NCBI RefSeq assembly: GCF_001579845.1
Contig: NZ_CP007440.1
Location: 6,284,029-6,348,028, forward strand
Source: Rhodoplanes sp. Z2-YC6860
GTDB taxonomy: Bacteria > Pseudomonadota > Alphaproteobacteria > Rhizobiales > Xanthobacteraceae
Direction of reading: 5' to 3'
Length of the DNA stretch: 64,000 nucleotides
The translations under genes were made by a program, and so were the position numbers. The number at the start of each line of letters is the position of its first letter. Position 1 is the first letter of the stretch. The notes beneath the pieces are model-generated. The model was given only the letters and a program-made list of their open reading frames with translations. It ran no database searches and was not told the origin of the DNA. Below, piece by piece: positions 31,074-45,839 of this stretch.

Positions 31074-32126
31074 ATGAGCGCAACAACACAGGCCAGCGAC
31101 GACCAGGAGGCTGCGCCGTTCCAGACGCTGGCCGAGTTGCGCAAGGCGTGCCTCGATCTGCCAAAGGGCGACGACGGAGCCGCAGCCGCGGTCGTGGCCC
31201 GCCAGGCTCAGCTCACCAAACCACCCGGCAGCCTCGGCCGGCTGGAGGACATGGTCGCCTGGCTCGCGCGATGGGGCCGCAACCCGCCGCGGCTCGATAC
31301 CGTCGACATATTGGTGTTTGCCGGCAATCACGGCGTCACGGTCCACGGCGTCTCGCCCTACCCGGCCGCCGTCACGGCCCAGATGGTGGCGAATTTCTCT
31401 GCCGGCGGCGCCGCGATCAATCAGCTCGCCGGCTCGGTCGGGGCGAGGCTCCGCGTGGTCCCGCTCGATCTCGACAGACCGACGGCGGATTTCACCGTCG
31501 AGCCCGCGATGGACGAGGCGGCGTTCATCGCCGCGGTGACGACCGGCTACCGCGCAGTGCGGCCGGAAGCCGATCTCGTCTGTCTCGGCGAGATGGGCAT
31601 CGGCAACACCACGGCTGCTGCCGCCGTCGTCGCGGCGCTGTTCGGAGGCGGCGGCGCGCGCTGGGCCGGCCGCGGCACCGGCCTCGACGATCGCGGGCTG
31701 ACACGAAAGCAGACGGTGATCGACAAGGCGCTGGCGCGGCACGTCGGCATCGCAGACGATCCGCTTCTCGTTGCTGCGGCGCTCGGCGGGCGCGAGCTGG
31801 CGGCCATTCTTGGCGCGACGCTGTCCGCACGGCATCATCGCATCCCGGTACTGCTCGACGGCTTCGTGTGCACAGCGGCGGCTGCGCCTCTCGCAAAACT
31901 CCGCACCGATGCGCTCGATCATGTGCAGGCAGCACATGTCTCGGCCGAAGCCGGCCATCGCATGCTGCTCGATGATTTAAAGCTCAAGCCGCTGCTCGAT
32001 CTCGGCATGCGACTCGGCGAAGGCTCAGGCGCGGCAGTCGCGGTGTCATTGCTGCGCGCAGCGCTCGCCTGCCACGACGGCATGGCAACGTTTGCCGAAG
32101 CCGGCGTCGCCAACAAGCCGCACTAA
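31074..32126 (+). CDS. cobT: CobT (CobU), nicotinate-nucleotide:dimethylbenzimidazole phosphoribosyltransferase
   Basis: The 350-aa protein matches this enzyme throughout: TKPPGSLGRLEDMVAWLARW, FAGNHGVTVHGVS, LGEMGIGNTTAAAAV and the catalytic Glu in RLGEGSGA near the end. It activates the lower ligand dimethylbenzimidazole. I chose the ATG at 31074; an ATG at 31038 would add 12 residues. It is divergent from cobS and convergent with cobB, overlapping its stop at 32123-32126. The longer upstream frame is a cobS shadow. Confidence 0.92.
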   Translation: MSATTQASDDQEAAPFQTLAELRKACLDLPKGDDGAAAAVVARQAQLTKPPGSLGRLEDMVAWLARWGRNPPRLDTVDILVFAGNHGVTVHGVSPYPAAVTAQMVANFSAGGAAINQLAGSVGARLRVVPLDLDRPTADFTVEPAMDEAAFIAAVTTGYRAVRPEADLVCLGEMGIGNTTAAAAVVAALFGGGGARWAGRGTGLDDRGLTRKQTVIDKALARHVGIADDPLLVAAALGGRELAAILGATLSARHHRIPVLLDGFVCTAAAAPLAKLRTDALDHVQAAHVSAEAGHRMLLDDLKLKPLLDLGMRLGEGSGAAVAVSLLRAALACHDGMATFAEAGVANKPH

Positions 32127-33439
32127 CTTTCGCGCGCGATGGCGTGGAAGAACGTGCCGGACACAAGTTCGCGCCGGCTTCCGGTCTCCACCACGGGCTT
32201 GCCTTGCGCATCGGTGACTTCGACGAACGGCTCGTCGCTGCCTTTGTCAATGATGCTGGCGTGATGGAATTCGTGCCCGCGCACGACATCGCCTGCGGCA
32301 CCCAGCGGATGATCGGCCAGGAGCCGCGCCTGTCTGTATCCGAGATGCAATCTGCGCTTGGCAAAGCTCGTCGCGTGCGAGAGGAGGCCTGCCATCGCGT
32401 GCCTTGTGCCGCTGGCGTCTTCCAGGCCCTCGCCAAGAACCATGTAGCCGCCGCACTCGCCGTGAACCGGACGCGTGCGCGAAAACTCCTTTAATCCATC
32501 CTTGAAACGCTGTGCAGCAGCGAGGGCTCCGGCGTGCAACTCGGGATAACCGCCGGGCAGCCAGCAGACATCGCAATGATCCGGTGGCGCTTCGTCGCGC
32601 AGCGGCGAGAACGGAACGATCTCGGCGCCGCTCCTTCGCCAGTCGTCGAGCACATGCGCGTAAACGAAAGAAAACGTCGCATCGGACGCAAGCGCGATAC
32701 GCTGGCCCGGCGTCTTCAATGTCGGAGCCGTGGACGAAGAAAGATCGGGCAAAGGCGCCGCCATCGCCATGATGGCATCGAGATCGAGATGCCGCGCCGC
32801 CATCTCGGCAAAGCTTGCCAGCCGCGCGTCGAGATTGACATGTTCGCCGGCCTGCACCAGGCCGAGATGCCTTTCGGGTAGGACCATCTTGTCGTCGCGC
32901 GGGATCGCACCCAGCACCGGGATGCCGAGCGGCTTCAGCGCATCGGCGATCAGCGTGCGATGGCGATCGCTGCCCAGCTTGTTGAGCACCACGCCGCCGA
33001 CACGAACCTTCGGATCGAACGACGCGAAGCCTGCCGCAACCGCAGCAGCCGACTGCGACTGGCCCGACACGTCGAGAATGAGCAACACCGGCAACGCAAA
33101 GCGCGCCGCGAGGTCCGAGGCCGCGCCCGAACGGCCGGGCACCCCCGGCACGCCGTCGAACAGCCCCATTGCGCCTTCGATCACCAGCACGTCGGAGGCT
33201 TGCGCGGCCTCGCCGATCAGCGCCTCGATGGCGGCGGGCGGCATCGCCCAGCTGTCGAGATTGACGCCCTTTTGCGCCGTGGCCGCGGCATGAAACGCCG
33301 GATCGATGTAGTCCGGCCCGGACTTCGCCGCGCGCACCGCGATGCCCTTGCGGCGCAGCGCGCCCAAAAGCCCGAGCGTCACCGTGGTCTTGCCGGAGCT
33401 CGAACGCGGCGCCGAGACGATCAACCCGCGCGCCGTCAC
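32123..33439 (-). CDS. cobB: CobB, hydrogenobyrinic acid a,c-diamide synthase
   Basis: The 438-aa glutamine-dependent amidotransferase has an N-terminal P-loop (APRSSSGKTTVTLG) and a C-terminal GATase domain with nucleophile HGECGGYMVLG (Cys near 335) and HEFHHASI later. It amidates the a and c side chains. It starts at a GTG that overlaps the cobA stop by four bases (GTGA), so translation is probably coupled. It is the last gene of the cobL-E-M-A-B segment. Confidence 0.94.
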   Translation of the reverse strand: MTARGLIVSAPRSSSGKTTVTLGLLGALRRKGIAVRAAKSGPDYIDPAFHAAATAQKGVNLDSWAMPPAAIEALIGEAAQASDVLVIEGAMGLFDGVPGVPGRSGAASDLAARFALPVLLILDVSGQSQSAAAVAAGFASFDPKVRVGGVVLNKLGSDRHRTLIADALKPLGIPVLGAIPRDDKMVLPERHLGLVQAGEHVNLDARLASFAEMAARHLDLDAIMAMAAPLPDLSSSTAPTLKTPGQRIALASDATFSFVYAHVLDDWRRSGAEIVPFSPLRDEAPPDHCDVCWLPGGYPELHAGALAAAQRFKDGLKEFSRTRPVHGECGGYMVLGEGLEDASGTRHAMAGLLSHATSFAKRRLHLGYRQARLLADHPLGAAGDVVRGHEFHHASIIDKGSDEPFVEVTDAQGKPVVETGSRRELVSGTFFHAIARES

Positions 33440-34230
33440 CGGGCCGCCTCGGAGACGAGATGAAGAAGCTGGTTCCGCACCGTCACGATCTCGCCGATCA
33501 CGATCAGGCCCGGCAGGCGATAACCGAGCTTGCCGACCTCACCGGCGAGGCGGTCCAGCGTGGTGATCACGATATGCTGCTCCGGCAAGGTCGCCGCGAC
33601 GATCACGGCCGCAGGGGTTGCCGGCGCAAGGCCACCGCGCGCCAGCGCCGCGGTGATGTGCTCGATGTTGCGCATCGCCATATAGATCACGATCGGCTGG
33701 CCGGTGCGCGCCAGCGCGCTCCAGTCGAAGTCGGGATCGGCGTGGCCGGTGACGAACGTGATGGCCTGGTTGACGCCGCGCATGGTCGCCGGGATCGAGG
33801 CCGTGGCCAGGCCCGCAATGCCCGCCGTGATACCCGGGACAATGCGATACGGAATGCCCGCTTCGGCGAGCGCGATGGCCTCTTCGCCGCCGCGGCCGAA
33901 CACGAAGGGATCGCCGCCCTTGAGCCGCAGCACCTTGTGGCCCTGCCGCGCCAGCTCGATCAGCCGCGCCGTGATATCGGCTTGTTGCGTCGATGGCCGG
34001 CCGCCGCGCTTGCCGGCAAATTCCAGCGTGGCGCCCGGGCGGGCCAGCGCCAGCGTCTTCTGGTTCACCAGCGCGTCATGCACGATCACATCGGCCTGCG
34101 CCAGCGCCGCCAGCGCATCGAGCGTGAGCATGCCAGGATCGCCAGGGCCTGCACCCGCAAGCCAGACATGACCGGGCTCCATCTTCGGAAACCGGTCGTG
34201 CAGGACCGCAAGCGCTTCGAGCGGGTTCAT
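33436..34230 (-). CDS. cobA: CobA, uroporphyrinogen-III C-methyltransferase
   Basis: The 264-aa SAM-dependent methylase contains VWLAGAGPGDPGMLTLDAL, RLKGGDPFVFGRGGEE and VPGITAGIAGLA, the classic CobA/SUMT set. It makes precorrin-2 from uroporphyrinogen III, the branch-point step. There is no siroheme (CysG) oxidase/ferrochelatase domain. I kept the ATG at 34230, 21 bp after cobM; an ATG at residue 17 is an alternative. Confidence 0.94.
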   Translation of the reverse strand: MNPLEALAVLHDRFPKMEPGHVWLAGAGPGDPGMLTLDALAALAQADVIVHDALVNQKTLALARPGATLEFAGKRGGRPSTQQADITARLIELARQGHKVLRLKGGDPFVFGRGGEEAIALAEAGIPYRIVPGITAGIAGLATASIPATMRGVNQAITFVTGHADPDFDWSALARTGQPIVIYMAMRNIEHITAALARGGLAPATPAAVIVAATLPEQHIVITTLDRLAGEVGKLGYRLPGLIVIGEIVTVRNQLLHLVSEAAR

Positions 34231-34251: not shown

Positions 34252-35010
34252 TCATCGCCCGCCGCGGAATCGACGGCGGTAGTCCGGATCGTACAGCGCG
34301 CTCTCGCGAAAATCATGCGCGGCGAGCGCCTTCCCTACGAGCACCAGCGCGGTACGCTCGATCGGCTCGGCCGCGACCTGCGCGCAGATCGTGCCGAGCC
34401 TGCCGCGCAGGATCCGCTCATCGGGGCAACTCGCCCGAACCACCACGGCGACCGGACAATCCGCGCCATAGACCGGCAGCAGTTCGCTCACAATTGCGTC
34501 GAGCGCGTGGATGGCGAGATGAATGGCCAGCGTCGCACCGGTTGCGGCGAAAGCGGCCAGTTTTTCGCCCTCGGGCATGGCCGAGGCGCGGCCGGGCATC
34601 CGCGTGAGCACGACGCTCTGCGCGATCTCCGGCACCGTCAGCTCGCGGCCCAGCACGGCCGCTGCCGCCGCGAAGGCGGGCACGCCGGGCGTCACGGTAT
34701 AGGGAATGCCGAGCCGTTCCAGCCGCCGGGTCTGTTCGGCGAGCGCGCTGTAGATCGAAAGGTCGCCGGAATGCAGCCGCGCCACATCATGGTTCTTGTC
34801 TCGTGCCGCGACGAATTCTGTCTCGATCTCATCGAGCGACATCGGCGCGGTGTCGACGATACGCGCGCCGGGCGGGCAAAATTGCAAGAGCTCCTTCGGC
34901 ACGATCGAGCCGGCATAGAGACATACCGGGCATTGGCCGATGAGATCGCGGCCGCGCACCGTGATGAGGTCGGCAGCGCCGGGGCCTGCGCCAATGAAAT
35001 GCACCGTCAC
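34252..35010 (-). CDS. cobM: CobM, precorrin-4 C11-methyltransferase
   Basis: The protein has 252 aa from a GTG at 35010, which has GGGAGA upstream and overlaps the cobE stop by four bases. CobM features are clear: [22 protein letters not shown] at the N-terminus, [33 protein letters not shown] and [13 protein letters not shown]. It methylates C11 of precorrin-4. A longer frame from 35040 lacks a good ribosome site. Confidence 0.93.
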
Positions 35011-35393
35011 GGCGTATCTCCCGTGATGGCGAGCGCGCAAGTCGCCGGACCGACAGCGACGCGTGGAGCAATGAGTCGCGCGCCGGGGCCAGCGGCGGCG
35101 AGTGCGGCGGCCTCCGACACCGATGGCACGCCGGTCATGGCCAGCACGCGTTCCGATCGCGTCAACGCGCGCGCGCCGGCGGCGACCAGATCGACCTGTA
35201 GCACGACGACCATCTTCAACCCACGGCCGGTTGCCGCGGCCGCGATGCCGGGCTCGGACGATTTCGCGTGCGACGTTGCGATCAGCCCCAGCGCACCGCT
35301 TGCAAGACCCGCTTGCGACAGCGCCGCGCCAATCGCCGCTTCGATCTCCTGTGCCGATGCGCCCGCCTTGCAGCCAATGCCCGCGACGATCAT
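35007..35393 (-). CDS. cobE: CobE/CbiG C-terminal-like protein
   Basis: The 128-aa protein (from the ATG at 35393, in an ATGA overlap with the cobL stop) matches CobE, the small protein equivalent to the C-terminal part of Cbi[36 protein letters not shown], and [15 protein letters not shown]. CobE binds pathway intermediates in the aerobic route, though its exact role is unsettled. It sits between cobL and cobM. Confidence 0.88.
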
Positions 35394-36637
35394 GGCTTGG
35401 TCCAGAGCCATTGCGTCACCGGCATCGCCGGCCGCCATCCAAACTTTCCGCCGACGTGATCGGCACGCGACAGCGCCACGCGGACCAGTTCGCCGCCGTG
35501 CGAGGCGTGACGCGTCAGCAAAACCGCCTCGGTCTCCAGCGTCACGGCGTTGACCACGAGACGTCCACCGGAACGAAGCGCGGCCACCGCGGCATCGATC
35601 ATGCCCGGCTCGGCTGCGCCGCCGCCGATGAAGATCGCGTCGGGCACCGACAGACCCTTGAGGCAATCGGGCGCCCGGCCTTCCACGACCTCCAGCCCCG
35701 GAACGCCGAAGGCTGCGGCGTTGCGCCGGATGCGCGCGGCCCGCTCCGGATGTCGTTCAACGGAAATCGCGCGGAGTGAAGGGTCGGCCAGCATCCATTC
35801 GATGGAGACCGAGCCCGAGCCCGCTCCGATGTCCCAGAGCCGTTCGCCTTTTCGCGGCGCGAGCGACGACAACGTGATGGCGCGGACCTCACGCTTGGTG
35901 ATCTGTCCGTCGTGTTCGAACAGCGCGTCTGGCAATCCCGGCGCACGCGACAGAATGCGGGCATCGGCCGACGCTTCGACCTCCAACGCAACCACGTTGA
36001 GCGGGCTGACATCCACCAAATTAAACTTGGCTGCCGCCGACGTCCGGACGCGCTCGTGCGGACCGCCGAGCGCTTCCAGCACCGTGAGTCTGGTTCCGCC
36101 GAAGCCGTTGTCGCTGAGCAACGCCGCCAGTGCACGGGGCCCGTCGGCGTCCGATGTCAGCGCCAGCACATGCGCGCCGGGATGCAGATGCGGGCGAATG
36201 AGATCGAGCGCGCGTCCGTGCAGCGATACCAGCGCCGTGTCCGGCAGCGCCCAGCCCATACGCGCTGCCGCAAGGCTGAAGGCCGACGGCGCGGGCACGA
36301 CCAGCATTTCGCCGGAATCGACATGGCGCGCCAGCACCGAGCCGACGCCATAAAGAAACGGATCGCCGGAGGCGAGCACGCAGACGCTCCGCCCACGTTG
36401 CTCCATCACTTCGGCGGGCGCGCGGTCGAACGGACTCGGCCACGGCCGCATCGCCCCGCGAACCAGCGACCTCGCCAGTTCCAGATGGCGCTTGCCGCCA
36501 AACACGATCTCGGCGTCCGCGATCAGGCCGCGTGCGACGGCACTCAACCCGTCGATGCCGTCCTCGCCGATCCCGACAATGGACAGCCAGCGGCGCGGTG
36601 CGGCACTCTCAGCGGTGAGCGGATGAGCGGATGGCAT
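35390..36637 (-). CDS. cobL: CobL, precorrin-6B C5,15-methyltransferase (decarboxylating)
   Basis: The 415-aa fusion has an N-terminal CbiE-like methylase (about 15-205: [28 protein letters not shown]) and a C-terminal CbiT-like Rossmann methylase (about 230-415: [35 protein letters not shown]). It methylates C5 and C15 and removes the acetate carboxyl group. The only plausible start is the ATG at 36637, within the CATG that is also the cobK start on the other strand. No spare DNA remains for a separate promoter outside cobK. Confidence 0.93.
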
Positions 36638-37400
36638 GAGGAACGTTCTCATACTCGGCGGCACGACGGAAGCGCGGCAGCTTGCGGGGTTGCTCGCAGG
36701 CCGCGCCGACATCAAGGCCGTGCTGTCGCTGGCCGGCCGCACCGCGACGCCCGCCGCGCAGCCGGTTCCGGTGCGGATCGGCGGCTTCGGCGGCGTGGAG
36801 GGTCTGGCCGACTATCTCTGGGCCGAGCACGTCGATGCGCTGATCGACGCGACCCACCCTTACGCGGCAATCATTTCGCAGCATGCCGCCGAGGCCACGG
36901 CGTCGGTTGGCGTTCCGATCGTGGCGCTGCGTCGGCCAGCTTGGAGCGCTGTCGCGGGCGACCGCTGGAGCGAAGTCGATGATATGTCCGGCGCTGTCGC
37001 TGCGCTCGGCAAAGAGCCGAAGCGCGTGTTCCTCGCCATCGGCCGCAAGGAGGTCGTGGCGTTCACCGAGGCTCCACAACATCATTACCTGATCCGCAGC
37101 GTCGACCCGATCGATCCGCCGCTGAACGTACCCAATGCGGCCTACATCCTCAGCCGCGGCCCGTTTCCCGAAAGCGACGAAAAAGCGCTGCTGTCGGAAC
37201 ACCGCATCGACACCATCGTCGCCAAGAACAGCGGCGGCAGCGCGACCTATGGCAAGATCGCGGCCGCGCGAACGCTGGGCCTCAACGTCATCATGCTGCG
37301 ACGCCCTCATCTTCCCGACATTCCGGCGGTCAACGACGCGCACGGCGTGGTCGCGTGGCTCGACCATCAATGGCCGCCTTCGACAAAGCGCGGCGTGTAA
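36636..37400 (+). CDS. cobK: CobK, precorrin-6A reductase
   Basis: The 254-aa NADPH-dependent reductase has NVLILGGTTEARQLAGLLAG at the start, ALIDATHPYAAIISQHA, and YILSRGPFPESDEKALL. It reduces precorrin-6A. It is the only gene of this block on the plus strand. Its start ATG (36636-36638) shares CATG with the cobL start, and its last 34 bp overlap the end of convergent cobJ. Any minus-strand transcript running from cobJ into cobL is antisense to cobK. Confidence 0.94.
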   Translation: MRNVLILGGTTEARQLAGLLAGRADIKAVLSLAGRTATPAAQPVPVRIGGFGGVEGLADYLWAEHVDALIDATHPYAAIISQHAAEATASVGVPIVALRRPAWSAVAGDRWSEVDDMSGAVAALGKEPKRVFLAIGRKEVVAFTEAPQHHYLIRSVDPIDPPLNVPNAAYILSRGPFPESDEKALLSEHRIDTIVAKNSGGSATYGKIAAARTLGLNVIMLRRPHLPDIPAVNDAHGVVAWLDHQWPPSTKRGV

Positions 37401-38128
37401 ACGAGTGGAGATCGGCCCGGCCGCTCGATGACGCGCGTCAGCGGCGAGCCAATGATGATCAGCGTGGCCATGTCGGCTGCCGACGGATCGACGGCATCAA
37501 GACTATAGATCCCGATCTTCTCGTCGGGGCGTCCGACTGCGCGACCGAACACCACCGGTGTCGATGCCGGCAGATGTTGCCGCAGCCGCTCGAACGCCTT
37601 GCCGAGTTGCCAGGGCCGCGCCCGCGAGATCGGATTGTAAAGCGCGATGACGAAGCCCGCGCCTGCCGCTGCATCGAGCCGGCGCTCGACGACACCCCAC
37701 GGCTTCAGATTGTCCGACAGCGAGATCGCGCAGAAATCATGACCGAGCGGCGCGCCGACCCGCGCCGCAACCGCAAGCATCGCGGTGACACCCGGCACGA
37801 CCGACACGTCGAGACTGCGCCAAGCGGCATCACCGCGGTCGATCTGTTCACAGACCGCAGCCGCCATGGCAAACACGCCCGGATCACCACCCGACACCAT
37901 CGCCACCTTGGCGCCCTGCGCAGCATGGCGGAGCGCGGCGGCGGCGCGGCTTCCCTCCTCGCGATTGTCGGAAGCATGGCGCGTCTGTCCGGACTTCGCC
38001 GGCACACGATCGAGATACGGTCCATAGCCATAGAGCGCGTCGGCGCGATCGAGCGCGGCGGCGGCTTCCGGCGTCAGCGTCTGCGGGCTCCCCGGTCCGA
38101 GCCCGATCACTGCAAGAGCGCCGCTCAC
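37367..38128 (-). CDS. cobJ: CobJ, precorrin-3B C17-methyltransferase
   Basis: The 253-aa methylase has LAVIGLGPGSPQTLTPEAAAAL, YGYGPYLDR, VSGGDPGVFAMAAA and VVPGVTAMLAVAARVG, typical of CobJ. It performs ring contraction and C17 methylation. The start overlaps the cobI stop (ATGA). The 3' end overlaps convergent cobK by 34 bp. Confidence 0.95.
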   Translation of the reverse strand: MSGALAVIGLGPGSPQTLTPEAAAALDRADALYGYGPYLDRVPAKSGQTRHASDNREEGSRAAAALRHAAQGAKVAMVSGGDPGVFAMAAAVCEQIDRGDAAWRSLDVSVVPGVTAMLAVAARVGAPLGHDFCAISLSDNLKPWGVVERRLDAAAGAGFVIALYNPISRARPWQLGKAFERLRQHLPASTPVVFGRAVGRPDEKIGIYSLDAVDPSAADMATLIIIGSPLTRVIERPGRSPLVYTPRFVEGGH

Positions 38129-38850
38129 GGCCGCGTCTCCCAGCCCGGCACCAGAATGACCGAGAAGTACGGCGCGTCGTTGTCGTGCTTGTCTTCGAGC
38201 CGCAAGGTGACGGCTTCGGCCGTGGTGCCACGCTCCACGTAGATGGCGCGCGACAGCCGCCCGGTCCGTGTCAGCACGCGCCGCACCTTTTCCAGATTAC
38301 GGCCGAGCTTCATCACCACGGCGGCATCGGCATCCGCAAAGCGGCGTTCCAATTCGGCTTCGGGCAATGTCGCCGGCAACACCACGAACACATCGTCGCC
38401 CTGCGCGATCGGCGCGCCCGCGAGCGACCAGCAGCCCGACATCGCGGTGACGCCAGGAACGATCTCGGCGCGGTAGCGCGGCGCCAGCCGCACATGCAGA
38501 TGCATGTAGGAGCCGTAGAACAGCGGGTCGCCTTCGCTGAGAATCGCGACCGTGCGCCCGGCATCGAGATGGCGCGCCACCGCCACGGCCGAGCGGTCGT
38601 AAAACTCGCGGATCGCCTTGCCGTACTCCGCGCAATGCCGCGGCAGTTCGGTCGTCACCGGATAGAGCAAGGCAAGCTCCTCGACACCGGCGCGTACGTG
38701 GCCGTTGACGATGCGCCGTGCATTGCTGGCGTTGCCCGCCTTGGCAAAATGCGCGACGACATCGGCCTCGGCCAGCGCGCGCGCAGCCTTGAAGGTCATG
38801 AGCTCGGGGTCACCCGGCCCGACACCGACGCCGATCAGCCGCCCGCTCAT
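38125..38850 (-). CDS. cobI: CobI, precorrin-2 C20-methyltransferase
   Basis: The protein has 241 aa from the ATG at 38850, an ATGA overlap with the cobH stop. It has LIGVGVGPGDPELMTFKAARAL, LSEGDPLFYGSYMHL and IVPGVTAMSGCWS, diagnostic of CobI. It methylates precorrin-2 to precorrin-3A. The frame continuing upstream is a shadow of cobH. Confidence 0.95.
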   Translation of the reverse strand: MSGRLIGVGVGPGDPELMTFKAARALAEADVVAHFAKAGNASNARRIVNGHVRAGVEELALLYPVTTELPRHCAEYGKAIREFYDRSAVAVARHLDAGRTVAILSEGDPLFYGSYMHLHVRLAPRYRAEIVPGVTAMSGCWSLAGAPIAQGDDVFVVLPATLPEAELERRFADADAAVVMKLGRNLEKVRRVLTRTGRLSRAIYVERGTTAEAVTLRLEDKHDNDAPYFSVILVPGWETRP

Positions 38851-39482
38851 AGGCCCGCCCTTGCCAGCGCGTTGATCGCGGCGGCCGTCATGGCGCTGCC
38901 GCCGAGCCGCCCGCGCACGATCAGATAAGGCACGCCCGACGGATCGACCGCCAGCGCCTCCTTGGATTCGGCTGCGCCGACAAAGCCCACCGGAATGCCG
39001 AGGATCGCGGCTGGCTTCGGCGCACCCTTGGCCAGCATTTCCAGGAGATGAAACAGCGCGGTCGGCGCATTGCCGATGGCGACCACCGAACCCGCGAGTT
39101 GCTCGGCCCAAAGCTCCAGCGCCGCCGCCGATCGCGTGGTGCCGAGCTTCTGCGCCAGCGCCGCGACGCGTGGATCGTGCAACGTGCAACGGACTTCATT
39201 GCCGGCCGGCAGCCGCGCCCGCGTCACGCCATGCGCCACCATCTCGGAATCGCACAGAATCGGCGCGCCGGCGCGCAGCGCCGCGCGGGCTGCTGCGACC
39301 AGCCCGTGGCCGAACTGGATGTACTGGGCCGCGTCGGTGCTGCCGCAGGCGTGCACCATGCGGACCACGACATCGGCCTCCTCCTCCGAAAAGCGCGACA
39401 GATCGGTCTCGGCACGGATGATCGCGAACGAGCGTTCGTAGATCGCCGTGCCGTCGCGGAGATAGTCGTGCCGGTCGCTCAT
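38847..39482 (-). CDS. cobH: CobH, precorrin-8X methylmutase
   Basis: The 211-aa protein has the catalytic-His segment VRMVHACGSTDAAQYIQF (His about 43) and GIPVGFVGAAESKEAL near the C-terminus, which is standard for CobH. It moves a methyl group from C11 to C12 to form hydrogenobyrinate. The start ATG at 39482 is in an ATGA overlap with cobG. Confidence 0.95.
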   Translation of the reverse strand: MSDRHDYLRDGTAIYERSFAIIRAETDLSRFSEEEADVVVRMVHACGSTDAAQYIQFGHGLVAAARAALRAGAPILCDSEMVAHGVTRARLPAGNEVRCTLHDPRVAALAQKLGTTRSAAALELWAEQLAGSVVAIGNAPTALFHLLEMLAKGAPKPAAILGIPVGFVGAAESKEALAVDPSGVPYLIVRGRLGGSAMTAAAINALARAGL

Positions 39483-40723
39483 GACCGCACCCGAATAAGC
39501 CGGCCAAGCTGTTCGGGCAAGGTATCGACCGTGGCAGAGCCGACCCGATCGTCGCCGCGATAAATCTCGCAGGCGCCGTTGCGGCCGACGATGGTCATGG
39601 GCGCGGCGGCCGGATAGGCGCAGCCTTTCACGCATCCGGAGATGTGAACGAAACCTGGCGCCTCTGTGCCGTTCAGGACGTCAGCCACGACCGGCGCCAA
39701 CGCACGTGACGGAATCTGACCCGCCGAACAGATCGGCGCGCCGGCACAGGCGATCACGCGGCGGCGCGGATCGCTTGCCTCGACGATGAAGTTCATGGCC
39801 TTCGCCGCGGCGACGACATCAGCCGCGAGGTTGGCCGGAATGCCCACAAGAAGCAGCGCCCGCTTCGGCGCTGTGCGCAACCCGGCCGCCTGGACGTGCG
39901 CGGCGAGATCGACCAGCGAATGCAAGCTCTCGGCGTCCGAATGGCCGAACGACGGGGCGATGCCGATGGCGACATCGCCGGAGCGCAGCGCATGCACGCC
40001 GACGGGATCGGCCTTCGCCCGAGGAGCCGGAACAGCGGCCGCGGCCATCATGCGGTCCAGAGCCGACTTGAACCCGTCGATTCCCACCGTCTCGACGGCA
40101 TGACGCATCCGCGACTGCGGAGCGAGCGTTGCCAGGACTTCGATCAGCCGCATCGCGCATTCGACCGCTCGATGGGCAGCGATAACGCCGAGCGGAACCG
40201 CGCTTGTCGCACCTCCGCCAAGCGCGACATGGAAGTCCGGCTCGCCGTCGCTCTGCATCGCCCGCAACCGGATGTCCGCCGAAAGCTCGTCAAGATGAAG
40301 CGGACCGCCACCATCGATTGCGACGGACAGTTTCGCAGAGAGCCGCGAGGTCAACGGAGCGCTTGTCAGCGCGCGCCGCAGTTCGTTGGCGACCGGCTCG
40401 GCATCGAACACATTGCCGCAATCGAGGCCCGACAGCGGATCGACGATGACGGGAATGCCATCGCTCGCCGGAATGCCGAGGTCCGACACTTCGGCGGCGA
40501 AGTCCGCCGCCGAGACTTGCGTCAACCCACGGAACTGGATGCTGCCGCGCGAGGTGATCTCGATCACCCCGTTGCCGCGGCGCTGCGCCGCTGCGCAAAG
40601 GCCCGCGAAGGCCGCAAGCGGAATGGTCGATCCGGCCGGCGTGAGCCGCGCAAGCAAGCCGTCGCCGGTCGCCATCGGCGCCGACAGGCCCGGGCACGCG
40701 CCGCGTCGCATCGGCGCGTTCAC
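39479..40723 (-). CDS. cobG: CobG, precorrin-3B synthase
   Basis: The 414-aa sulfite/nitrite reductase-like monooxygenase starts at a GTG in a GTGA overlap with cobN. It has the ferredoxin-like repeat GDGLLARLTPAG near the N-terminus. The [4Fe-4S]/mononuclear-iron cysteines lie late: CAGAPICSAGQ and HISGCVKGCAYP. It uses O2 to form the C20-hydroxy gamma-lactone, so its presence marks the aerobic route. No CobZ alternative is present. Confidence 0.93.
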   Translation of the reverse strand: MNAPMRRGACPGLSAPMATGDGLLARLTPAGSTIPLAAFAGLCAAAQRRGNGVIEITSRGSIQFRGLTQVSAADFAAEVSDLGIPASDGIPVIVDPLSGLDCGNVFDAEPVANELRRALTSAPLTSRLSAKLSVAIDGGGPLHLDELSADIRLRAMQSDGEPDFHVALGGGATSAVPLGVIAAHRAVECAMRLIEVLATLAPQSRMRHAVETVGIDGFKSALDRMMAAAAVPAPRAKADPVGVHALRSGDVAIGIAPSFGHSDAESLHSLVDLAAHVQAAGLRTAPKRALLLVGIPANLAADVVAAAKAMNFIVEASDPRRRVIACAGAPICSAGQIPSRALAPVVADVLNGTEAPGFVHISGCVKGCAYPAAAPMTIVGRNGACEIYRGDDRVGSATVDTLPEQLGRLIRVRS

Positions 40724-43700
40724 GACACAGCCTCCGCACGAAGCTCGGCGATGCTGCCTTCGACATCGTTGCGGCGCGGATGCCAAAGGCCGAGGCGGCG
40801 CGCCTGCTCGAAACGTTCGGCCATGGCCTTCGCGGCCGCGGGATTCTCCGCTTTGAGAAAAGCGCGAACGGCGGGATCGGCGAGATAGGCGTCGTGGACG
40901 AGATCCAGCAGCGTGCTGGAAACGGCGCCGGTGGTGTGTGCGAAATCGACCAGCCGATCGACGGTTTCGGCAAGCTCCGCTGCGCCGCGCGGGCCGTGCC
41001 GCATCTGGCCGGCAATGAAGCGCGGATTGATCGCGCGGGCGCGCACGATGCGCGCCAGCGCCGTGGCAAGCGACCGCGCGCGCGGCCGCTGGGGATCGGA
41101 GGTGTCGAGCATCACCAGATCGGGATTGCGGCCGAGCGACGCGGCAGCGGCCGCAAAACCTCCGACGAACGCCGCGTCCTCGGCGCCTTCGAGCAGGTCG
41201 CGCGCCGGATCGTCGCCGGTGTGCAGCAGCAGATCGGCGCTGGCGACGCGTTCGGCGAAGGCGCCGGGCTGATGACGAGGCTCGCCATTGGCGCCGCCGT
41301 AAACGTGCGATGCGGCGGCCAGATAAGCCGCGCCGATATCGTCGCGGTCGGCTTCCCGGCCGATCATGTCTTCAAGACCGGCCCCATAAGCGCCCGGCGC
41401 GGTGCCGAAGATGCGGGCAAGCGCCATCTTAGCGTGGCCGTTTGCGGAGCGGCGGATTGCGGCAAGCGGATTCTCGTCCGCCGTCTCATCGCGCGCCGCG
41501 ATCGCCTGCGTGGCGGCATCGAGCAGCGCGATCTGCGCCGGGAAGAGATCGCGGAACAGGCCGGAGATGCGCCACGTCACATCGACACGGGCGCGGCCGA
41601 CCGCTGCGCACGGCAGCACCTCGATGCCCGTCACGCGGCCGGTGCCCAAGTCCCAGACCGGGCGGCAGCCCATCAGTGCGAGCCCCTGCGCGATCTCCTC
41701 GCCGCCGGTGCGCAGCGTGGCGCTGCCCCAAAGGTCGATCACCAGCGCGCGCGGCATATCTCCATGCGTCTGCATGTAGCCGCGCAACACCTCGTCAGCC
41801 GCCATGCGGCCGAGATCCATCGCGGTCGGCGTCGGCAGCATGCGCGGATCGGCGGTGTACATGTTGCGGCCAGTCGGCAGCACGTCGCGACGCTCGCGGT
41901 GCGGCGAGCCTGCCGGCCCCGGCGCGACGCGACGGCCTTCGAGCGCGTCGAGCAGACTCTTGCGTTCGTTCGCGGCGCTCGCCGCGCGAGAAGCGTCGGC
42001 ATCGTCGGACGCGCGGCCGTAGACGTGCTGCCCGTCCTTGATGGCGAGATCCTTCAAATCGCAGAGCCAGGCATCGATCTGGCGCAGCGCCTCGTCGGGC
42101 GACGCCTGAGCGCCGACACCGGCCTCGCGCGCCAATCCGCTCCGCTGTGCGGTCTCGGCGATGAGCCGCGCCAGCCGTTCGCGCCGGCGACGATCCAGTC
42201 CGTCGGCCTGGGCGTATTCGTCAACCAGACGTTCGAGTTCGCGCGCGTCTCCCGAAAGATCGGCGCCGACCAGCGGCGGCGGCATGTGACCAAGGGTCAG
42301 CGCCGCGAGGCGGCGCTTGGCTTGGGCTGCTTCGCCCGGATTGCTCACGATGAACGGATAGACCACAGGCAGCGGCCCGACCACGGCCTCCGGGAAACAT
42401 GAGGCCGTCAGCGCGACCGCCTTGCCGGGCAGCCATTCCAAAGTGCCGTGTGCGCCCATATGGACGATCGCATCGGCTTTCAACTGGTGACGAAGCCAGA
42501 GACCAAAGGCCATCAGGGCATGGCGCGGCGGCAGCGACGGATCGTGATAGTCGCTGCGGCGATCGGCGGGCCGGCCACGGTCGGGCGGCAGCGCGACAGT
42601 GACGTTGCCGAAGGACTGCGCGCGAAAATGAAATGCGTTGTTTTGGACGTCGGGATCGGTCTCGGGCGATCCCCACGCCGTATGGATACGCTCGACAACA
42701 TCGGCCGGGCATCGGACCAGTTCATCCCGATAGGCATCGAGCGGCATCGATACTTCGGCCTGCCCGAGTTCATCGAGCAGTTCTTTCGACGAACCCGGAA
42801 TATCGCCGACCGGGTAACCGGCCTGCGCAAGATCGTCGAGCAACGCGAGCACACTCGCCGGCACATCGAGACCGACCGCATAGCCCGTGCGCCCAGACGC
42901 GCCGGGATAGTCCGGCATCAGCACCGCGATCCGACGTTCTTCGCGCGGTGTTGTTCTCAATTTCACCAGAGCAGCGACGCGATCGGCCACCATCGCGACG
43001 CGATCAGGCTCCGGCTGATTGGCCGTGGCTGCGAAGGACAGCCCTTCAAGCGGCGCAGATTGATTCTTGAACGCGATGGCGCCGGCCAGCACGCGGCCGT
43101 CGAGCTCCGGCAACACCACATGCATCGCGAGATCGGCGGCGCCGAGCCCGCGCGGGCTGTCGAGCCAGGCGGCGCGTCTGGTCGTCGCGACCACCGCCTG
43201 CAGCACCGGCACGCCCATCTCGTCCAACGGAGATTCTGCAGCGCCCTCACCGGTCGCGGCAAAGGCCGTGGTGGTCACGATGACCGAAGGCTTCAGCCTG
43301 CGCATCGCGTCGCGCAGGAACGTGGCTGATTCAGCGTCTTTCAGGCTGGGCACGAACAGCGGCGCCGGGGCAAGACCGCGTGCCGCAAGCGCAGCCGCAA
43401 GCGCGTCGATTGGCGCGACGTCAGCGGCAAGCAGCATCGATCGGTAAAAGACAAGCGGAATGACCGGTCTGCTGTTCGGCAAGGTCGCCACGAGCCGCTC
43501 GAGATCAATCGCTGCGGGCGCGTAACCGCCGCAACGTGGCAATGGCCGCGGTCCGGCACAATCAAGCTGCGCAAGCCTGCGCAGCAATGCCCGCAAATTG
43601 TCACGTCCGCCTTCACGGAAATACGCCAGCAGCGCCGTCAACCCATCCGCCGGGAGAGTCGAGCATTCGGCCAATCGCGGATCGTCGCGATCCTCGCCCG

Positions 43701-44043
43701 GCAGCATCGCGAGCGCGATGCCGCGCTCCTTCGCCAGCGCCGACAGCCGGTCGGCGCCATAGCGCCACCAGTCGAGCCCGCCAAGCAGCCGCACCACGAT
43801 CACCTTGGCATGGGTTCCGACACGATCGATCCACAGATCGACCGACATCGGATGCTTAAGATCGCGCAGCTGCACCAGCCGAACGCTCGGCAGCGCGTCG
43901 CGCTCGGCATTCCATGCCGACGCCAGCCCGGCGAGATCGCTGTCAGCGAACGACAGGATCGCGATGTCGCCCGGCGTCTGTCCAAGATCGACCGGCTCGA
44001 CGATGTCGTCGAGGCTCGTGGAGCTGGTCGAGAGCAGATGCAT
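40720..44043 (-). CDS. cobN: CobN, large subunit of aerobic cobaltochelatase
   Basis: The 1107-aa protein of the CobN/BchH/ChlH family starts with MHLLSTSSTSLDDIVEPVDLG and contains MGAHGTLEWLPGKAVALT (about 525-545) and FHFRAQSFGNVTVALPPDRG before it. It inserts cobalt into hydrogenobyrinate diamide with ATP. It is somewhat shorter than the roughly 1275-aa classical enzyme but looks intact from end to end. Its AAA partners (chelatase CobS and CobT) are not in the window. It starts three bases after the cobW stop and overlaps cobG. Confidence 0.94.
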   Translation of the reverse strand: MHLLSTSSTSLDDIVEPVDLGQTPGDIAILSFADSDLAGLASAWNAERDALPSVRLVQLRDLKHPMSVDLWIDRVGTHAKVIVVRLLGGLDWWRYGADRLSALAKERGIALAMLPGEDRDDPRLAECSTLPADGLTALLAYFREGGRDNLRALLRRLAQLDCAGPRPLPRCGGYAPAAIDLERLVATLPNSRPVIPLVFYRSMLLAADVAPIDALAAALAARGLAPAPLFVPSLKDAESATFLRDAMRRLKPSVIVTTTAFAATGEGAAESPLDEMGVPVLQAVVATTRRAAWLDSPRGLGAADLAMHVVLPELDGRVLAGAIAFKNQSAPLEGLSFAATANQPEPDRVAMVADRVAALVKLRTTPREERRIAVLMPDYPGASGRTGYAVGLDVPASVLALLDDLAQAGYPVGDIPGSSKELLDELGQAEVSMPLDAYRDELVRCPADVVERIHTAWGSPETDPDVQNNAFHFRAQSFGNVTVALPPDRGRPADRRSDYHDPSLPPRHALMAFGLWLRHQLKADAIVHMGAHGTLEWLPGKAVALTASCFPEAVVGPLPVVYPFIVSNPGEAAQAKRRLAALTLGHMPPPLVGADLSGDARELERLVDEYAQADGLDRRRRERLARLIAETAQRSGLAREAGVGAQASPDEALRQIDAWLCDLKDLAIKDGQHVYGRASDDADASRAASAANERKSLLDALEGRRVAPGPAGSPHRERRDVLPTGRNMYTADPRMLPTPTAMDLGRMAADEVLRGYMQTHGDMPRALVIDLWGSATLRTGGEEIAQGLALMGCRPVWDLGTGRVTGIEVLPCAAVGRARVDVTWRISGLFRDLFPAQIALLDAATQAIAARDETADENPLAAIRRSANGHAKMALARIFGTAPGAYGAGLEDMIGREADRDDIGAAYLAAASHVYGGANGEPRHQPGAFAERVASADLLLHTGDDPARDLLEGAEDAAFVGGFAAAAASLGRNPDLVMLDTSDPQRPRARSLATALARIVRARAINPRFIAGQMRHGPRGAAELAETVDRLVDFAHTTGAVSSTLLDLVHDAYLADPAVRAFLKAENPAAAKAMAERFEQARRLGLWHPRRNDVEGSIAELRAEAVS

Positions 44044-44046
44044 CGA

Positions 44047-45081
44047 TCATCCGTTGAGCATGCGCACGATCTTGTCGCGGTCGAGGCCCTTGAGCCCGAT
44101 CACGACAAGCTGCGTGCCGCGCTGTTCCGACGGCGTCCAGGCGCGGTCGTATTGTGTGGTCACGCGCGGGCCGACGGCCTGGACCAGGAGCCGCATCGGC
44201 TTGTCGCGGACCGCAGCGAAGCCCTTGATGCGCAGCACGCCCGCAGCCTCCGCGGTGGAAGACACCAGCCTGGACAGCGCATCGGGATTTTCGATCTCAG
44301 GAAGCGGCACGATGAAGCTCTCGAAGTCGTCGTGGTCGTGATCGAGCTCGTCGTCGTGATGGGTCTTGCGGTTCTCGATGTCGGCCTCGGTGCCGATGTT
44401 CAACCCGAGCAGCGCCGGGGCATCGACCTTGCCGCCCGCAACCTTCACCACCTTCACGGCGCGCGGCAGCGCACCGGTCACCGCGGCTTGCGCCTTCTCC
44501 AGGCCGCCCTGATCCAGCAGGTCGCATTTGTTGAGCACCACGAGATCGGCGCAGGCGATCTGGTCCTCGAACACCTCTTCCACCGGATCGTCATGATCGA
44601 GCGCATCATCGGCCGAGCGCTGCGCCGCGAGCGCCGCCATGTCGTCGGCAACGCGGCCCGCGGCGAGCGCCGCGCCGTCGACCACCGCGACCACACCGTC
44701 GACGGTGACGCGGTTCTTGATCGAGGGCCAATGGAACGCCTGCACCAGCGGTTTCGGCAACGCGAGGCCCGAGGTCTCGATCACGATGTGCTCGACCTTC
44801 GGTTCTTTCGCCAGAATGACATCGAGCGCCGGCACGAACTCGTCGGCCACCGTGCAGCACAGGCAGCCGTTGGCGAGTTCGACGATGTTCTCCTCCGGGC
44901 AGGCGGCATCGCCGCAGCCTTTGAGGATCTCGCCATCGATGCCGACATCGCCGAACTCGTTGACGATCACCGCGAGTCTTCGGCCATTCGCATTCGCCAG
45001 CACGTGGCGGATGAGCGTCGTCTTGCCGGCGCCGAGAAAGCCGGTGACGATCGTGCAGGGAATGCGCGCCAGCGAGGTCAT
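44047..45081 (-). CDS. cobW: CobW, COG0523 GTPase metallochaperone
   Basis: The 344-aa GTPase has a P-loop GFLGAGKTTLIRH, the CLCC metal motif (ELANGCLCCTVADEF, about 73-87), ETSGLALPKPL, NKCDL, and a His/Asp-rich loop (KTHHDDELDHDHDD, about 226-240). CobW is thought to deliver cobalt to CobN. It starts by overlapping the DUF1636 stop (ATGA) and ends three bases before cobN. It is under the riboswitch. Confidence 0.95.
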   Translation of the reverse strand: MTSLARIPCTIVTGFLGAGKTTLIRHVLANANGRRLAVIVNEFGDVGIDGEILKGCGDAACPEENIVELANGCLCCTVADEFVPALDVILAKEPKVEHIVIETSGLALPKPLVQAFHWPSIKNRVTVDGVVAVVDGAALAAGRVADDMAALAAQRSADDALDHDDPVEEVFEDQIACADLVVLNKCDLLDQGGLEKAQAAVTGALPRAVKVVKVAGGKVDAPALLGLNIGTEADIENRKTHHDDELDHDHDDFESFIVPLPEIENPDALSRLVSSTAEAAGVLRIKGFAAVRDKPMRLLVQAVGPRVTTQYDRAWTPSEQRGTQLVVIGLKGLDRDKIVRMLNG

Positions 45082-45503
45082 CCTTCGGACTCCGTGAAAT
45101 CGAGCGGCGGGACGCGCGCGATCAGGCCGCGCTTCAGTGCATCCGGCCGGCCCCGCCAGGGCATCAGGCCGTCGGCGGATTGAGAGAGAAGCTGCGCACC
45201 TTTCACCAACGCTTCGGCGTCGGTCGAGGCATCGAGGTGGCCGAACACATAGGTCCAGGCGTTCGGGCTGCGCAGCACCGCGCTGCAGCCGCGCTTGCAG
45301 TTGGCGAGACAGCGCAGCGGCTGCACGGTGACGCCTGAATTTTCGGCAGCTTGGATCGTCGCCGCAGCCAGCGCCGCGCCCGGCCGCGGATGGTCCTCGG
45401 GATCTTCCGGCCGCCTGCAGGTGGTGCAGACATAGATCACCGTCGCCGCGCTTTCGCGCGCGGGCGTCTCGACGGTCTTGTCCGGCAGATCGGTCAACGA
45501 CAC
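45078..45503 (-). CDS. DUF1636 predicted metal-binding protein, first gene of the cob operon
   Basis: The protein has 141 aa from a GTG at 45503 preceded by TGAGGAG six bases away; ATGs at 45530 and 45545 are weaker alternatives. It is rich in cysteine: CTTCRRPEDP near residue 24 and LRCLANCKRGCSAV near 63-77, a pattern suited to an Fe-S or metal site in a thioredoxin-like ferredoxin fold. DUF1636 genes are frequently next to cobW, but their role is unproven. It is the first gene after the cobalamin riboswitch. Confidence 0.85.
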   Translation of the reverse strand: MSLTDLPDKTVETPARESAATVIYVCTTCRRPEDPEDHPRPGAALAAATIQAAENSGVTVQPLRCLANCKRGCSAVLRSPNAWTYVFGHLDASTDAEALVKGAQLLSQSADGLMPWRGRPDALKRGLIARVPPLDFTESEG

Positions 45504-45622
45504 CCGTGGCTCCTCAAGAGCGGACAGCATTCCACCAGGGTGCAAACGAACGCGGTCGACACGCGCGGCCCGGCGGCCGCGGTCGTGAAACGGCGTCAGG
45601 GCACCCCGCCCGGCGCTCGACC

Positions 45623-45804
45623 GAATTGACGGCAGGTCTCCTGGCTCGCGGGTCGCCGCCCGTCACCGCCTTCCCGGGCCGGAACCCAGTGGCATTGTGG
45701 CACGAGCTCGCCGCTGACAGTTGCGGGGGCAGCTGCGGAATTGGGCTCAAGGCGCCCGCACCGCATTCCCTTTTCACTCTTCCGCACGAAGAGACCGTCA
45801 ATTC
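45623..45804 (-). promoter_or_regulatory. Cobalamin (AdoCbl) riboswitch controlling the cob operon
   Basis: Read on the minus strand, all major parts are present. A perfect 10-bp P1 stem is formed by 45795-45804 with 45623-45632. The core then reads GGGAATGCGGTGC, CTGCCCCCGCAACTGT and GCCACTGGG. The conserved B12 box GCCAGGAGACCTGCC lies at about 45631-45645. The aptamer begins at the predicted transcription start. About 120 nt separate it from the DUF1636 start. A strong hairpin with arms CGCGGCC/GGCCGCG lies in that leader, but no poly-U follows, so control is more likely of translation or Rho access. Vitamin B12 should repress the operon. Confidence 0.95.
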
Positions 45805-45810
45805 CAGTCC

Positions 45811-45839
45811 AATAAATGGCCTGGGTGAGCCTTTGTCAA
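45811..45839 (-). promoter_or_regulatory. Promoter of the riboswitch-controlled cob operon
   Basis: On the minus strand TTGACA (45834-45839, exact consensus) and TTTATT (45811-45816) are 17 bp apart. Transcription would start at about 45804, the first base of the riboswitch P1 stem. Confidence 0.72.

Follow-up and report, generated by a model that had tools for sequence, protein, structure and literature searches.

Operons interrupted by a gene of opposite orientation have been described as noncontiguous operons, and the closest described case is the Staphylococcus aureus operon menE-menC-MW1733-ytkD-MW1731, in which an opposite-strand gene lies between the operon genes and is overlapped by the operon mRNA (PMC7154746). 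The cob cluster examined here likewise encloses an opposite-strand gene, cobK. The S. aureus mRNA is described as untranslated opposite the embedded gene, whereas the strand opposite cobK carries a conserved start codon, a ribosome site and an open frame. By layout the cob cluster is like a noncontiguous operon; co-transcription, on which membership would hinge, is reported for S. aureus (PMC7154746), whereas between cobJ and cobL we infer it. Excludons, as discussed in the same review, are neighboring transcripts that overlap in antisense and regulate each other (PMC7154746); an overlap of this kind is predicted in the cob cluster, but there both sides serve one pathway. A third point of comparison is pop of E. 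coli O157:H7, a long translatable ORF on the strand opposite ompA (PMC7103648). It differs from the cob frame, which seems to be selected for translatability only and which joins two operon genes.

The same gene order and overlaps (cobL with cobK at their starts, cobK with cobJ at their ends) occur in the cob cluster of the Rhizobium etli plasmid pRetMIM1d, where the cob genes are annotated separately and the PLSDB gene table, which is incomplete, has no antisense ORF. In the 40 listed of 273 plasmid records with a match, no feature other than cobK and cobJ is annotated under cobK, and no antisense gene is named there. The literature matches listed, which cover few subscription papers, include no description of an antisense bridge or of antisense cobK. 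The antisense ORF was also absent from the sequence-only reading that preceded this analysis, and the new result here is this candidate bridge on the other strand. On comparative grounds we think it probable that cobK is embedded in a single operon, and that an antisense "translation bridge" carries ribosomes from cobJ to cobL.

Gene order around cobK

The window (the whole stretch of DNA analyzed, 64,000 nucleotides) comes from a genome of 8.19 Mb in a single contig. Its minus-strand genes run in the order DUF1636, cobW, cobN, cobG, cobH, cobI, cobJ, and then cobL, cobE, cobM, cobA, cobB, and an RF00174 aptamer lies upstream of the arm that ends in cobJ (Table 1). The match of CobK to NF005968 exceeds the cut-off of 231 and covers residues 2-246 of 254. 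The sequence-only reading had placed cobK on the plus strand between minus-strand cobJ and cobL, and both the sequence and the profile matches bear out its coordinates. The sequence also confirms the CATG that it had assigned to both the cobK and the cobL start codons (the position of the latter being inferred from alignment), as well as the 34-bp overlap of the 3' ends of cobK and cobJ. The order that it had given, cobN-G-H-I-J followed by cobL-E-M-A-B, is likewise correct, with cobE recognized by its position and a CbiG-type match below the cut-off. At the far end of the cluster, cobB on the minus strand and cobT on the plus strand share 4 bp at their 3' ends (window 32123-32126). A second cobalamin riboswitch is found elsewhere in the same genome (3359484-3359687, 125.6 bits).

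Table 1. Features of the cob cluster, in positions of the window
Feature	Position	Strand	Basis
cobK, precorrin-6A reductase, embedded backwards	36636-37400	+	254 aa; NCBIfam NF005968, 345.4 bits
cobL, CbiE and CbiT domains, first gene past the bridge	36637-35390	-	415 aa; profile search
cobJ, last gene ahead of the bridge	38128-37367	-	NF004648, 436.3 bits
cobI, upstream arm	38125-38850	-	NF004647, matched on a longer ORF
cobH, upstream arm; true start further in	38847-39635	-	NF006136
cobG, upstream arm; true start further in	39479-40786	-	TIGR02435
cobN, upstream arm	40720-44043	-	NF008973
cobW, upstream arm	44047-45081	-	TIGR02475
DUF1636 protein, first in the upstream arm	45078-45545	-	Pfam PF07845, 110.9 bits
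Cobalamin riboswitch ahead of the upstream arm	45614-45814	-	RF00174, 144.7 bits
cobE, downstream arm	35007-35411	-	Position, plus a partial CbiG-type match that falls short of the cut-off
cobM, downstream arm; full listed ORF, whose true start is probably internal	34252-35040	-	TIGR01465
cobA, downstream arm	33436-34230	-	NF004790, 286.1 bits
cobB, last gene of the downstream arm	32123-33439	-	NF002204, 505.9 bits
Candidate antisense bridge ORF, 253 codons, TTG start	37370-36609	-	ORF list and sequence
Purine-rich Shine-Dalgarno-like stretch ahead of the bridge start	37374-37380	-	Sequence; statistic computed for the group, not for the window alone
CATG common to the start codons of cobK (+) and cobL (-)	36635-36638	both	Sequence; 50/177 loci
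cobJ and cobK 3' ends, overlapping by 34 bp	37367-37400	both	Sequence; 3' overlap in 163/177 loci

Loci carrying cobK were drawn from genomes related to that of the window at the level of genus, family, order, class or phylum, and the cob proteins of the window were placed on them; the stretches were hand-picked to spread over families and genera and are part of the matching genomes. The arrangement seen in the window, an opposite-strand gene within a run of same-strand genes of the same pathway, recurs in 104 of 149 distinct cobK loci, with cobL and cobJ both opposite to cobK and one on each side. Conservation in related genomes had been left by the sequence-only reading as a point to be checked; the cobL-cobK-cobJ layout is common and not peculiar to this genome. 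Though gene order differs, cobK lies on the other strand from its nearest cob neighbor on either side in 140 of the 149 loci (the 104 included). Orientation around cobK is mixed in four loci (L096, L097, L099 and L152), and in five the nearest cob gene is on cobK's own strand (L157 and L160-L163). A second layout has cobK between cobA and cobM, opposite to both (L093, L132, L134, L136, L138 and others). Within the genus of the window cobK was detected in only three of 11 genomes, the window's own included, and some of these genomes are incomplete.

A second collection, of named organisms, consisted of the best 80 of 581 relatives of an alignment of layout loci, and its proportions are therefore no census: five were repeats, 73 have the layout and two do not show it. 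The 73 loci include Mesorhizobium, Rhizobium, Ensifer, Sinorhizobium meliloti, Agrobacterium, Methylobacterium and Bradyrhizobium, and also Rhodopseudomonas palustris, Sphingomonas, Azospirillum, Halomonas cupida and Ectothiorhodospira, the last two of which are gammaproteobacteria. In the first set the 3' ends of cobK and cobJ overlap in 92 of 104 loci, 89 of those in one phase; the starts of cobK and cobL overlap in 66, and a CATG is common to both starts in 33. When the two sets are pooled (177 layout loci), the 3' overlap is found in 163 and the CATG in 50.

The frame antisense to cobK

In the window, the TTG start of the antisense ORF overlaps the TGA stop of cobJ, each of its codons over cobK is the reverse complement of a cobK codon, and it terminates 29 nt inside cobL. 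GC-rich genes commonly have long antisense frames. With just 0.22 antisense stops expected in the window, an open frame there is no proof on its own, and significance from the window alone was rejected on this ground.

Comparison among loci is more informative. Stops in this frame within cobK derive solely from the sense codons TTA, CTA and TCA, and their expected number was taken from how the remaining cob genes of each locus use their codons. Over the whole of cobK, the first set contains 48 stops versus 117.3 expected, and the frame is open in 88 of 104 loci versus 51.0 (sd 4.3); the second contains 44 versus 113.4, with 61 of 73 loci open versus 31.4 (sd 3.5). In the 157 loci that have the usual 3' overlap, 20 stops are found in whole cobK versus 155.9 expected. 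In the stretch that separates the cobJ stop from the cobL start, these loci have just 6 stops versus 147.0 expected, and this part of the frame is open in 151 of them versus 77.1 expected (sd 5.3). Thinning to below 60% CobK identity leaves 45 loci with 3 stops versus 50.2 expected; below 55%, 23 loci have none versus 32.5, and below 50%, seven loci have 1 versus 10.8.

The other 20 loci, which lack the usual overlap, show no overall depletion (72 stops versus 74.0 expected), a contrast that rests on five of the 20 (L133, L140, L248, L250 and L254), which carry 64 of the 72 stops. When the 20 are divided by presence of the bridge, a split that is partly circular, the nine that keep it have 0 stops versus about 7.6 expected and the eleven without it have 72 versus about 66.

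The depletion is not a general codon bias, because the three codons concerned are strongly depleted in cobK relative to elsewhere (TTA, 0 versus 0.0067; CTA, 0.0019 versus 0.0154; TCA, 0.0081 versus 0.0492) while eight other A-ending codons (GTA, ACA, GCA, CCA, GGA, CGA, AGA and ATA) are near normal, at 0.85-1.30 times their use elsewhere. It is also frame-specific. In 69 thinned loci the in-register antisense ratio is 0.49 for cobK and 0.78-1.22 for five control genes, and the other antisense frames of cobK, at 1.42 and 0.90, are much like those of the controls (1.07-1.43 and 0.78-0.87); in these figures, as in those for the cobI/cobJ and cobB junctions given below, nine of the 104 cobK 3' ends overran a stop. 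For the 157 loci the in-register ratio is 0.13 in cobK versus 0.71-1.30 in eight control genes. Partial depletion is found in cobW as well (60 stops versus 89.3 expected, a ratio of 0.67, in 43 loci) and in cobT (5 versus 9.7, a ratio of 0.51, in only 8 loci).

The frame begins in the same place in most loci. A start codon lies over the cobJ stop in 95 of 104 loci (ATG in 64, GTG in 28 and TTG in 3) and in 62 of the 73 replication loci, or 157 of the pooled 177. For comparison, a start overlaps the stop in 99 of 99 loci at the true cobI/cobJ junction and in 28 of 58 at the end of cobB. Opposite the bridge start, CobK has His in 84 of 104 loci. In the alignment column where this position falls most often, around which the CobK alignment is ragged, His occurs in 48 of 104 CobK sequences of this layout versus 1 of 45 from other layouts, so that a fixed CobK residue is no easy explanation of the bridge start. 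Shine-Dalgarno energy was calculated by pairing the 15 bases ahead of a start with the anti-Shine-Dalgarno sequence, with matched internal cobJ sites as controls. It is -5.60 at the bridge start (95 sites) versus -3.19 at the matched sites (520 sites, p = 7.5e-14), and -5.38 versus -2.88 in the replication set (p = 1e-13); the values for two real gene starts are -4.96 (cobI) and -5.20 (cobH). The strand opposite cobK thus carries a start, a ribosome site and a long open frame that are all conserved, as in an antisense overlapping gene.

The place where the frame ends is also regular. It reaches the cobL start in 164 of 177 layout loci, and its end falls between -50 and +90 nt of that start in 94 of 104 loci and in 70 of 73 replication loci. 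In the 145 loci where it passes the cobL start, the stop lies a median of 17 nt beyond. The bridge frame in 123 of these 145 is the one whose first stop in control genes (cobJ, cobI, cobM and cobH) comes a median of 182 nt in; in the remaining 22 the bridge ends in the other frame, where the control genes stop at a median of 4 nt.

The bridge is not indispensable, since it is missing in 13 of the 177 layout loci: eleven without the usual overlap, together with L164 and L070. At L070 an ORF crosses cobK and ends within a 155-bp spacer. Six usual-overlap loci contain a stop between cobJ and cobL, which in five of them lies 2-29 nt ahead of the cobL start. In the remaining one, L164, which belongs to the genus of the window, a 916-bp insertion parts cobK from cobL. 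A glutathione-S-transferase (GST)-like gene occupies L164:1438-2085 in the insertion, and the bridge frame is broken there. Where spacers of 90-400 bp are present, the bridge frame is open in only 7 of 14 loci, two of the seven being close relatives, and shuffles give about 2.8 (summed single values). The cobA-cobK-cobM layout could be measured in 13 of 14 loci; cobK and cobA are 1.1-1.3 kb apart in 12 of the 13, and no frame is open from cobM to cobA in any of them, although L134 and L138 have a single stop in one frame. The bridge is therefore seen only in the cobL-cobK-cobJ layout. Two loci, L177 and L178, have a same-strand ORF between cobJ and cobK that presumably resembles methionine aminopeptidase.

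An overprinted protein gene with a functional product would account for the start codon, the Shine-Dalgarno signal and some 250 open codons in most loci. Selection on its amino acid sequence should be visible in cobK, whose four-fold (synonymous) sites are the first codon positions of the antisense frame, but these sites diverge as fast as those of neighboring genes: the relative change is +0.001 (p = 0.89, 37 pairs) and, when repeated, -0.012 ± 0.019 (62 pairs), with no slowdown. Nor does the product encoded in the window match any Pfam family at E 0.1 or better. We therefore regard a functional protein as unlikely. Since the synonymous sites are not slowed, the sequence of the bridge product seems unconstrained, and it seems to be translatability, not protein sequence, that is kept. 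In the same comparisons the four-fold sites of cobI were more conserved than those of its neighbors (+0.040, p = 5.8e-6; +0.046 in an earlier run).

Transcription of the locus

The sequence-only reading had reasoned that, unless a promoter for cobL lies inside cobK, cobL through cobB must be read from a transcript antisense to cobK. The conserved start, Shine-Dalgarno signal, open frame and end point lend this indirect support. The absence of a cobL promoter inside cobK is also consistent with what was found: a simple consensus scan, which may miss alphaproteobacterial promoters, detected no sigma-70-like site in 35300-38300, and AT profiles gave no clear promoter ahead of cobK and cobL, mean AT being at most 0.40 in every 6-nt window of the 80 nt upstream of cobL. 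These negatives carry little weight, since the consensus may be ill suited to this group. Two terminator-like sites were found in 35300-38300, and shuffles give 1.6. Within the end of cobI, 41-36 nt ahead of the cobJ start, there is a six-base stretch with a mean AT of 0.67 (154 loci) in otherwise GC-rich sequence.

No B12 box (one mismatch allowed) occurs between mid-cobJ and mid-cobL in any of the 177 loci, and one is present upstream of cobJ in 52 of the 67 loci that have at least 7.5 kb of upstream sequence. A separate riboswitch for cobK or cobL was considered and rejected: B12-box matches near cobK in L035, L175 and L176, with as many as two mismatches, were unconfirmed by Rfam. The features of the bridge would be of consequence only on a minus-strand transcript covering cobK, which supports, short of proof, that the riboswitch transcript runs on from cobJ into cobL. 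Opposite cobK, the antisense strand does not appear markedly Rho-prone, as its excess of C over G is ordinary. The cobK starts of the 104 loci have a mean Shine-Dalgarno energy of -3.10, like random sites and unlike most cob genes, so cobK expression may be weak or leaderless.

These observations also bear on the excludon-like control proposed in the sequence-only reading, in which the operon transcript would repress cobK in antisense and link it inversely to B12. Such control could coexist with a bridge. The antisense overlap would be complete, a riboswitch lies upstream (with the B12 box ahead of cobJ as counted above), and the lack of a Shine-Dalgarno signal at cobK would fit low expression. 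However, CobK is presumably required whenever the operon is, and mutual exclusion of two parts of the same pathway would be odd. A translated antisense strand should moreover pair less with cobK mRNA, and bridge translation would then weaken an excludon rather than make one. We consider this explanation improbable.

Least probable of all, in our estimation, is a frozen and functionless layout, in which a cobL promoter lies inside cobK, the overlaps lock the gene order and the open frame is mere codon bias: overlaps at both ends would make inversion costly (the 3' overlap is present in 163 of 177 loci) and high GC content frequently leaves the in-register antisense frame of a gene open (77 of 157 expected here), but there are 6 stops versus 147 expected while other A-ending codons are near normal, a start codon and a Shine-Dalgarno signal occur in the same frame, no sigma-70-like promoter was found (with the reservation made above for alphaproteobacterial ones), and AT content ahead of cobL stays low throughout the 80 nt.

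The proposed bridge and its implications

We return to the translation bridge as the preferred explanation. A minus-strand transcript under riboswitch control would continue past cobJ, cross cobK in antisense and extend into cobL-E-M-A-B. Ribosomes finishing cobJ would begin again at the start codon lying over the cobJ stop, translate about 250 codons in register with those of cobK, and stop just inside cobL, which would deliver them to the cobL start. Transcription of cobK would have to begin within or near cobL. Comparison of loci shows a conserved start, a Shine-Dalgarno signal, the near-absence of stops in one frame, an end at cobL and no detectable constraint on the sequence of the product; the transcript, its translation across the bridge in cells and the benefit of that translation are what these features would predict.

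Bacteria that depend on Rho should terminate a transcript when hundreds of antisense bases in it go untranslated. The purpose of the bridge would be that ribosomes do not leave the transcript for some 730 nt, and the candidate benefits are shielding from Rho, blocking of pairing with cobK mRNA, or translational coupling to cobL. If the conserved bridge is real, it would be an evolved answer to the Rho problem of noncontiguous operons, and would provide comparative evidence, with no transcriptome needed, for an operon that is read through an antisense gene. It would also represent a kind of ORF that is selected for being translated and not for its product. For annotation it would be a warning that an open antisense frame need not be a protein gene to be genuine. 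Silent mutations in cobK offer a concrete test.

With somewhat less confidence than we place in the cob case itself, we favor the broader view that non-informational frames, kept only for their translatability, bridge backward genes in operons, and that cobJ-cobL would be the first case known, extending through much of the alphaproteobacteria and some gammaproteobacteria. The same rule may extend to noncontiguous operons in general.
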